Source: Pyrinomonadaceae bacterium (GTDB lineage Bacteria; Acidobacteriota; Blastocatellia; Pyrinomonadales; Pyrinomonadaceae). From it: a stretch of 64,000 bases of DNA. The stretch is from contig JABDKD010000230.1 in NCBI GenBank assembly GCA_013003215.1, positions 1-64,000 of the forward strand. Reading direction: 5' to 3'. The notes below the pieces were generated by a model. That model had not been told where the DNA came from and made no database searches. It saw only the letters and a list, made by a program, of their open reading frames with translations. How positions within the stretch are numbered: position 1 is the stretch's first letter; every line of letters begins with the position of its first letter. The position numbers were made by a program, and so were the translations under genes. Below, one piece after another: positions 47,998 through 55,625 of this stretch.

Positions 47998-49083
47998 TCA
48001 ATTTGCCGAAGCTTCTGTTTTTTCTTTGTCGCCGTCGTCTTTCTTCTTCGTTTCGGCGTCGTCGCTCTTGGCTTCATCAGCCGGCTTAGTTTCCTTAGCC
48101 GGTTTCGATTCTTTAACCGCAGGAGCTTTTTCTTTCTTATCCGCTTCAGCCTTTTCAGCCGAAGCCTCTTCCTTCTTCTCAGAAGCCGGGGCTTTTGCCT
48201 CTTCCGCCTTTTCTGCTTTGGGCTTCGATTCAGCTTTCTCTTCCTTGGGTTTGGCTTCAGCTTCAGCCTTAGCTTCTTCAGCCTTAGCTTCGGGCTTGGC
48301 ATCGGCAAACGGTTCAATCGCTTTTTCCGTCGCAGCCTTTTTGGCGGCTTCATCAGCCTGTTCTTCGGCTGCAGTTTCAGCCATTCCTTCGGTCGCTACG
48401 TTACGACCCTCGAGAATTGCGTCAGCTACTCTTGAAGTAAAAAGCCTAATCGCTCTAAGAGCATCGTCATTACCGGGAATCACGTAATCAACACCTTCCG
48501 GCGTGCAGTTTGTATCCACTACAGCTACGACCGGTATGTTGAGCCTGTTGGCTTCGGCCACTGCGATCTCTTCCTTTCGGACGTCGATTACAAACAACAG
48601 ATCCGGAAGTCCCTGCATGTCCTTAATACCTGCAAGGTTCTTCATGAGCTTGTTGTGCTCGCGATCCAGACCGAGTCGCTCTTTCTTTGTAAGTTTCTCA
48701 GCGCGGCCGTCTTCAGCCATTGCTTCGATGTCCTTCAAGCGTTTGATGGAGTTTTGAACTGTCTTATAGTTCGTCATCAATCCGCCGAGCCAACGGTTGT
48801 GGATGTAGTATTGTTCGCAACGCTGGGATTCTTCGACGATCGCGTCCTGCGCCTGTCGTTTCGTCCCGACAAACAACACTTTCGCATTGGGATTCTCGGA
48901 CAAAAAGTCCTGAATAAATGCCAATGCGTCTCTAAAAAGCTTTTGTGTTTTCTGAAGGTCAATGATGTAGATGCCGTTTCGTTCGCCGAAAATGTAATCT
49001 TTCATTTTCGGGTTCCAACGGCGAACCTGGTGACCAAAGTGAACCCCTGCTTCTAGGAGTTCTTTCATCGTTACTGTAGCCAA
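47998..49083 (-). CDS. rpsB: 30S ribosomal protein S2 with long acidic/basic C-terminal tail
   Basis: About 361 aa. The S2 core (residues 1-250) shows [77 protein letters not shown] and [16 protein letters not shown]. The last 110 residues are a low-complexity Ala/Glu/Lys tail, making the protein much longer than the usual 230-260. The start is TTG at 49083: AGGAG lies 7 bp upstream and translation gives [10 protein letters not shown]. The frame extends further to 49173 without a ribosome-binding site. Confidence 0.96.
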
Positions 49084-49155
49084 ATCAACTCTCCTGTCTT
49101 GGTTTATGTACTCGGCGAGATCGCTTTGAACCAATAAATCCCGCCAATGGAATAA

Positions 49156-49174
49156 GGTGCGCTCAAGGCGCACC
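49156..49174 (-). promoter_or_regulatory. intercistronic hairpin between rpsI and rpsB
   Basis: GGTGCG / CGCACC stem with a 7-nt loop just after the rpsI stop, followed on the minus strand by TTATT. Too weak a U-run for a clear terminator; perhaps RNA processing or attenuation. Confidence 0.4.
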
Positions 49175-53830: not shown

Positions 53831-54193
53831 ATGGATGTGACTGATTCGAATAGAGATGCGGCTACACAAAGGGGGTTGTTTGACCCCGCTTCTGACGTCA
53901 AGGCGGAAGATGTCGTTATGTACGCATTGGGGGATTTCCAGGACCGCGGTTTTGAACTTGCCGGCCGTGAACTGGCACTAGACAGGTTGCTCGGGGCACT
54001 AAGCCGTGCATATATGGCATTTGACATCGTTCCTTTGAATGACGAGGCCGTCGCCGGGATCCTTCAACGACTTGAAGCGAAGGTTGAAGAGTTGCCGCAA
54101 TTTGTAGCAAAGCATCCGTTTCGAGTTACCGTTCCCAAGGATCTGGCAGAAAAGAGCCTCAGATATTTTTCTACTTTTAAGGAGAAACGATGA
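53831..54193 (+). CDS. conserved-looking hypothetical protein, 120 aa
   Basis: Mostly helical, with an acidic N-terminal half (DPASDVKAEDVVMYALGDFQ) and a C-terminal half rich in charged helices (LQRLEAKVEELPQFVAKHPF, LAEKSLRYFSTFKEKR). No signal peptide, cysteine or known motif. The stop overlaps the next start as ATGA, so it is translationally coupled to the secreted protein. It is the first gene of a three-gene overlapping cassette. Function unknown. Confidence 0.7.
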   Translation: MDVTDSNRDAATQRGLFDPASDVKAEDVVMYALGDFQDRGFELAGRELALDRLLGALSRAYMAFDIVPLNDEAVAGILQRLEAKVEELPQFVAKHPFRVTVPKDLAEKSLRYFSTFKEKR

Positions 54194-54870
54194 AGGCATT
54201 CAGCATATTCTTATTAGTCGCAATTCTTTGTTCCGCCACGTTTGCTCAGGAAATCAAGATCATTGAGTCCGGCGAATTTCATGGGGAAGAAGTAGTCGCA
54301 AAGGACGGAGAGCTCTGGTATGGCGTATATAAAATGGATACCGGATATATGCTTCTTCCATCAATTCTATCGGTAAGTGCAGTGCACGATCCGATCGTCG
54401 ACTCCAAAGGAGAGCAGTCCGGCAAAGCCGTGGCAGTACCCGGTCTTGGAAAACCGGTTTTTCTGGTTTCGGGAGGACGCTTCAATCAGGCAGGTCCTGT
54501 CAAAACACTTCGGGGTGTAAAAGGCGATCTGCTTTCTGAAAGTTCCTATGAATTTGACCTTGAAAATGCAAAGTACAGACTCTTTGTAGCTTCAGAAACG
54601 AAGTCCGTAGAGCGCTTTATATTGCCGAATTCAAAACTTATTTTATCGAACGGTGTACTTGAGCAAGAGGTATTTTCGGTCAGCGAATGCAACTTCTGCA
54701 TTTGGCAAGTTATTTGGGCCGGCGACTTGGATGGAGATTCGAAGCCGGATTTCTATATGCTCTTAACGGATCATTACAACGTCTCGCGCACCAAGCTCTT
54801 TTTATCAAGCGCGGCCGAGAACGGTAAGTTGGTGAAAGAAGTTGCTGAATTTGTTACCACTGGTTGCTAA
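54190..54870 (+). CDS. secreted hypothetical protein with FG-GAP-like motif
   Basis: A 226-aa exported protein. The signal peptide is MKAFSIFLLVAILCSATFAQ. The body is beta-rich. A motif near residue 180, WAGDLDGDSKPDFYMLL, resembles the calcium-binding FG-GAP/VCBS turn. Two cysteines are close together (SECNFCIW). It overlaps the genes on both sides (ATGA upstream, TAATG downstream). Function unknown. Confidence 0.75.
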   Translation: MKAFSIFLLVAILCSATFAQEIKIIESGEFHGEEVVAKDGELWYGVYKMDTGYMLLPSILSVSAVHDPIVDSKGEQSGKAVAVPGLGKPVFLVSGGRFNQAGPVKTLRGVKGDLLSESSYEFDLENAKYRLFVASETKSVERFILPNSKLILSNGVLEQEVFSVSECNFCIWQVIWAGDLDGDSKPDFYMLLTDHYNVSRTKLFLSSAAENGKLVKEVAEFVTTGC

Positions 54871-55625
54871 TGGAAAACAGAAACATAGATGATCTGAGGG
54901 ACTACATGTCCCGGTACACGGAAGATATCGAAAACACCCTTCGGGAAAATCTGCCGGAAGCGCCTGCGCGTCTCGAGAAAAGGTTTGGGGAGATTGCCGA
55001 AGCGGCCTTATTCGAAAGCAGGACCAGGGTCCGGCCCTATTTGACACTGCTTGCGGCGGAACTGGTTGGCGGGGAACCCGCAGATGTAATACCCGCTGCC
55101 GTGGTGGCCGAGTATGTTGATGCGGCGTCAAACCTGTTTTCGTCCCGCTCATCCGTGGGAATTGCAGTCGCTGTGGCTCTCCTGAATGCTTCGTATCCAC
55201 TCGTATTTGTTAATCATTCCGATTCCCCGGCGAATGGGGTCCGTGCTCATGCCGAAATCGTTGAGTGCGTCAGGGGCGCGGGAATTGTAGGGAGTTTTGA
55301 AGAGCAGGATTCAAGGTCGATCGAGTCGGCTCGGTTGGCCGGCAAAGAAAAGTCAGCTGCGATAGTGCGTCTGGCGCTTAGGATGGGAGCGATACTTTCG
55401 GGCGCGGATTATATTGAACTCGCCGCGCTTTCGCGCTTTGCTGAGCATTTTGGTAACGCCTCAACTCTTAAGAGCGAGTTTGCAATAGCCGGAGGCGATG
55501 CCGATAGCCTTAGGAGCCAACTCGAGATTAAGGTTGAAGATGCAAAAAAGGTTTTGGTAGAAGAATTTTCTGCGAGCAATGCGCGAAGCTGTTTGATCCA
55601 GCTCACCGATTTCCTTGTCTCCTGA
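54870..55625 (+). CDS. polyprenyl-synthetase-like protein lacking the aspartate motifs
   Basis: A 251-aa all-helical protein. RTRVRPYLTLLAAELVGGEP and AAVVAEYVDAASNLF align by pattern with the first conserved block of isoprenyl diphosphate synthases. KEKSAAIVRLALRMGAILSG and LSRFAEHFGNAS align with the later blocks. The two DDxxD metal-binding motifs are absent: SSRSS stands where the first should be (about 91-95) and TLKSEF (about 199-204) at the second. The protein is also shorter than the usual 300. So it is probably catalytically dead, perhaps a regulatory or binding partner. The start overlaps the previous stop (TAATG). Confidence 0.6.
   Translation: MENRNIDDLRDYMSRYTEDIENTLRENLPEAPARLEKRFGEIAEAALFESRTRVRPYLTLLAAELVGGEPADVIPAAVVAEYVDAASNLFSSRSSVGIAVAVALLNASYPLVFVNHSDSPANGVRAHAEIVECVRGAGIVGSFEEQDSRSIESARLAGKEKSAAIVRLALRMGAILSGADYIELAALSRFAEHFGNASTLKSEFAIAGGDADSLRSQLEIKVEDAKKVLVEEFSASNARSCLIQLTDFLVS

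Follow-up and report, generated by a model that had tools for sequence, protein, structure and literature searches.

A CrtE-like gene at a conserved locus

The stretch of DNA analysed here, hereafter the window, spans 64,000 nucleotides of the genome of a soil Acidobacterium, placed in the Pyrinomonadaceae by comparison with named relatives and available as a fragmented assembly of 274 contigs that is 91.75% complete. It holds a run of three genes on the forward strand (53831-55625). The first (53831-54193) encodes a protein of 120 amino acids with no Pfam match and is kept beside crtE family-wide. The second (54190-54870) encodes a predicted secreted protein of 226 amino acids with an FG-GAP-like GDLDGDxKxDFYM end and no significant family match. 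The third (54870-55625), the subject of this study, is an open reading frame for 251 amino acids that runs from an ATG at 54870 to a TGA at 55625 with no internal stop codon, in keeping with the intact frame reported in a preliminary description of the locus. The first two genes overlap by ATGA, the TAA stop of the second overlaps the ATG of the third (TAATG), and no Shine-Dalgarno sequence belonging to the third gene is visible. By these overlaps the run looks translationally coupled, as had been proposed. Elsewhere in the window, a ribosomal protein S2 gene (47998-49173) encodes a long Ala/Glu/Lys-rich C-terminal tail.

By its place beside coaBC and UDG and by its grouping in trees, the 251-residue protein belongs with the CrtE orthologues of Pyrinomonadaceae. 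By synteny its gene is orthologous to a CrtE-like gene that occurs intact in Pyrinomonadaceae, normally with a phytoene synthase gene (crtB) after it. The order in the family is UDG and coaBC, the conserved 120-residue gene, crtE, usually crtB, and then an asparaginase-like gene, preceded in some genomes by a peroxiredoxin-like one. Between the 120-residue gene and crtE, several genomes encode members of a family of predicted secreted proteins that end in an FG-GAP-like GDLDGDGKxDFYM sequence and match no Pfam entry; G001 has two copies. Members of cluster 34 were considered as alternative genes beside crtE in G004 and G022 and were rejected as antisense shadows of crtB. The intact orthologues display DDLPCMDNxxERR and SDDLIDxEED motifs and, at the fifth position ahead of the first of these, a small residue, which is the pattern of CrtE-type geranylgeranyl diphosphate synthases (GGPPS).

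The likeness to polyprenyl synthetases noted in the preliminary description is borne out by NCBIfam matches (f2_encap_cargo4, 3e-12; CrtE, 5e-9) and by a phmmer match to a solved structure, the Sinapis GGPPS 2j1o (E 1.6e-11), although the Pfam match to PF00348 (2.9e-4, 20.6 bits) lies under the gathering cut-off of 27 bits. A PHROGs search with the protein gave no matches. An AlphaFold2 model built from the protein and 13 orthologues reached a mean pLDDT of 88.5 and a pTM of 0.87, and its best Foldseek matches in the PDB were plant and cyanobacterial GGPP synthases and CrtE (E ~1e-8, TM 0.8). The small subunits of mint and snapdragon were matched as well; an unrelated fold, which would have overturned the earlier assignment, was not what the prediction returned. 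Homology and the modelled all-helical isoprenoid synthase fold thus place the protein in the trans-IPPS (polyprenyl synthetase) fold family.

The sites of catalysis have been erased from this scaffold. SSRSS (aa 91-95, 55140-55154) and TLKSEF (aa 199-204, 55464-55481), which had been proposed to stand at the two Asp-rich motifs, indeed align to DDLPCMD and to the SDDLID of QLSDDLID in the orthologues. After the first, some 20 residues are deleted, the RR and H of the loop among them, and the second combines substitution with a deletion of about 15 residues. The IPP-binding GGKRLRP has become SRTRVRP (aa 50-56, 55017-55037), in which GGK is gone and the IPP-binding Lys of GGKR is replaced (K53>T; GGKR to SRTR). 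The former GGQxxD loop now reads VGSFEEQD (aa 140-147, 55287-55310), in a part of the model where confidence is low, and the Q/T positions are also gone. The protein therefore has neither the DDxxxxD of the first motif, the DDxxD of the second nor the GGKR Lys of a catalytic CrtE; the pocket residues have not been kept, and the entire catalytic face is gone. Compared with the Pyrinomonadaceae CrtE/GGPP synthases (type II, DDLPCMD), with which it shares the locus, at most about 51% identity and the predicted fold, it lacks both Asp-rich motifs, GGK, GGQxxD and an adjacent crtB, and from its sequence catalysis would not be expected.

Selective loss and shared retention in five genomes

A gene of the CrtE group was found in about 35 of the 119 family genomes searched, and it is clearly eroded in five: the window genome (G000), G005, G001, where erosion is partial, G019 and G068. 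None of these copies contains a stop codon. G003 was left unscored, as its contig ends at coaBC. The preliminary description had suggested examining whether orthologues share the loss of both motifs while keeping the pocket residues; the eroded state, partial in G001, recurs in five genomes, and the pocket residues are not kept.

The comparison covered residues shared by at least 20 of the 21 intact orthologues: 15 that we take to be catalytic from the homologous positions of the human and E. coli FPPS, and 47 outside the motif regions. The window copy has lost 13 of the 15 and only 10 of the 47, keeping 37 (Fisher p 9e-6). The same bias appears in G005 (13/15 vs 5/47), G019 (14/15 vs 15/47), G068 (12/15 vs 11/47) and G001 (6/15 vs 2/47), with p values from 9e-8 to ~2e-3 for these four copies. 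Retention at the non-catalytic sites is also correlated between copies. For the window copy and G068 the correlation has p 1.5e-6, and 1e-4 when stratified for lability, that is, when sites were shuffled only with others that are about equally variable in distant intact orthologues. After stratification, p<0.05 was obtained in 8 of 10 copy pairs; on the strict 47-site set alone, with few losses remaining, the pairwise tests are weak.

Reading frames were preserved through this divergence. Neutral drift simulated to match the excess branch length yields ~3-10 stop codons per eroded copy, against none observed, and stop-free outcomes made up at most 0.3% of simulations (0-0.25%) for four copies and 3.5% for G001, rising to 0-17% when half the excess was assumed. 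All alignment gaps of the eroded copies comprise whole codons and leave the frame open. Branch lengths of eroded crtE are 2.4-6 times those of the flanking genes, compared with ~1.1 times in most intact copies, which indicates that constraint has been relaxed and is not absent. Together, the selective catalytic loss, the correlated retention, the lack of stops and the whole-codon indels favour a protein maintained in a non-catalytic capacity, so the role proposed in the preliminary description, over decay, is supported, although it is not proven.

What has been kept suggests what such a capacity could be. In the eroded copies retention is poor around either motif, in the QxxD loop and in the KT half of helix G. 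It is better in helices E and F, in the C-terminal helix, and in the later half of helix G together with the beginning of helix H. One retained block, with residues kept in all five copies, covers helices E and F (LLNASYPLVF ... AHAEIVEC; aa 104-133, 55179-55268), assigned by analogy as the counterpart of the helices that make up most of the dimer interface in FPPS (PMC4356374). Another runs from the end of helix G to helix H (the AIVRLALRMGAILSGADYIELAALSRFAE region; aa 164-192, 55359-55445). Among the residues that the five copies share without change are N106, Y109, H127, E129, E132, C133, R167 and R171, numbered for the window protein from the alignment, which may be one residue off the raw translation. 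Retention of helices E and F leads us to propose a dimerising non-catalytic subunit, a modest inference since these helices hold 11 of the 39 residues kept in all five copies, a modest enrichment. The most divergent eroded copy, with its structure predicted from eroded rows only, still matched GGPPS at a moderate pLDDT of 69.8.

The strongest competing explanation is slow decay, in which crtE became redundant once crtB was lost or replaced by a C50-type carotenoid operon and the relics have not yet been disrupted. Its appeal lies in the fast rates of the eroded copies and in their distribution: in genus g1 and G019, those genomes that have the C50-type operon and no crtE-linked crtB show an eroded crtE in all three readable cases, the fourth (G003) lying off a contig end. 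In G026, of the same genus as G068, crtE is cleanly deleted while the locus, crtB and the neighbours are kept (L199:5700-7974, contig C17); such relatives count against an essential role. Yet decay fits poorly with five copies free of stops and frameshifts despite large excess divergence, with losses concentrated on catalytic residues while retention elsewhere is correlated between copies, and with erosion in G001 and G068, where crtB of the old type persists. We regard it as unlikely.

It is quite improbable that the protein is still an enzyme, using the old cavity for an altered, a metal-independent or some other reaction: the modelled helical fold is kept and the cavity-lining helices G and H are partly conserved, but the catalytic-face residues are gone, no alternative conserved polar set occupies the pocket, and the segments around both motifs differ between the eroded copies. 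An assembly or binning error, or homology created by a frameshift, might be suspected in so fragmented an assembly, but is hardly credible given that the locus and gene order are those of relatives, the homology is in frame over the whole length, and the eroded state recurs in independent assemblies. The best overall explanation is that the protein is a pseudoenzyme derived from CrtE, to which we assign a probability of roughly two in three, and its gene is probably maintained for a non-catalytic function.

Origin of the eroded state

In a tree built from the flanking genes and the two canonical synthases, the window genome is sister to a trio whose crtE is intact (99.9/100), and a grouping of all eroded copies as one clade is rejected (AU p 6e-5). 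The species tree, for its part, is rejected by the crtE alignment (AU p 0.002), which itself resolves little, and the crtB tree lacks resolution at depth. Four eroded copies cluster in the crtE tree; we did not accept a single origin from this grouping, since the flanking genes reject it strongly and long-branch attraction is likely. Repeated inactivation of crtE is the simpler reading of the flanking genes, although the intact trio may instead have regained crtE-crtB. That CrtE was inactivated several times independently within one family, and that every such event left a non-catalytic subunit which was retained and conserved over the same surface, as a bacterial counterpart of the plant GGPPS small subunits, is a speculative extension that we hold to be somewhat doubtful.

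Relatives in other systems and a possible partner

PDSS2/Dlp1, an inactive trans-prenyl synthase homologue, is the non-catalytic subunit of eukaryotic long-chain synthases; it differs from the window protein in clade and pathway, and the two are likened by description only. HexA and HepS belong to families of their own, and the window protein has no match to a HexA/HepS-like family, being crtE-derived instead. These small subunits of long-chain synthases nevertheless provide the idea of a non-catalytic partner in bacteria (PMC7839719). Plant type I GGPPS small subunits lack both Asp-rich motifs and alter the catalytic subunit (PMC9863795; PMC7839719). The plant GPPS/GGPPS small subunit type I (GPPS.SSU; PDB 3oab_B, 3qkc) has, like the window protein, a GGPPS-derived fold devoid of both motifs and is one of its Foldseek matches, whereas the window protein is bacterial and arose from the local crtE. 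Members of the plant class carry two CxxxC motifs (PMC9863795) and form a heteromer with a catalytic subunit whose activity they change. The window protein has no CxxxC and its heteromer would be putative, so it is not classed as a plant-type small subunit. Within the trans-prenyl synthase fold family, we class it as a pseudoenzyme descended from CrtE. The literature searched, of limited coverage, contained no report of bacterial crtE pseudoenzymes.

The window genome has a single phytoene synthase, encoded away from the window locus in a C50-type operon (L168:9218-13795, contig C168). Its companions there are a CrtI-type desaturase (CrtI/D), a UbiA-family prenyltransferase, which is a UbiA-type elongase encoded on the other strand, and a fusion protein that joins a CruF-like domain to isopentenyl-diphosphate isomerase. 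From its gene content, this is a layout expected of a C50 carotenoid pathway. In this genome no catalytic synthase recognisable as GGPPS-type was found, the other prenyl synthases found being FPPS-type (Tyr at -5; contig C179) and long-chain (contig C124). The source of GGPP is thus in doubt, which makes a partner role attractive. The protein may still dimerise via helices E and F and could act as a non-catalytic subunit or adaptor for a second enzyme of prenyl-diphosphate synthesis; the FPPS-type synthase of the genome is the most plausible candidate. Prenyl diphosphate supply would then be modulated or channelled to the separately encoded phytoene synthase, as with plant GGPPS small subunits. 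This specific partner model, built by analogy, is tentative.

Four g9 genomes have the C50-type operon and crtE was not found in them; together with G026, which has crtB without crtE, they indicate that a partner is not obligatory in general. Because of the g9 genomes we also rejected the idea that the C50-type operon cannot do without a dedicated GGPPS or partner. A change of the FPPS-type chain-length residue in the eroded lineages was likewise ruled out, as Tyr stands at -5 in every readable genome, eroded or not, G003, G011 and G022 being left out because the stretch was unreadable.

In plants and other eukaryotes, prenyl synthase subunits without catalytic activity govern how carbon is divided among carotenoids, quinones and further terpenoids. 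A crtE-derived bacterial subunit, possibly formed more than once, would, if true, offer a tractable system for the change from enzyme to regulator, and the finding raises the question of how GGPP is supplied in genomes with a C50-type operon and no recognisable GGPP synthase. The same operon as in the window genome occurs in G005 and G019, and similar genes in G003, G076, G077, G090, G091 and G095. On contig C12 of G076 (L096), an intact, divergently oriented crtE adjoins the C50-type operon, so that both systems are linked in one genome.
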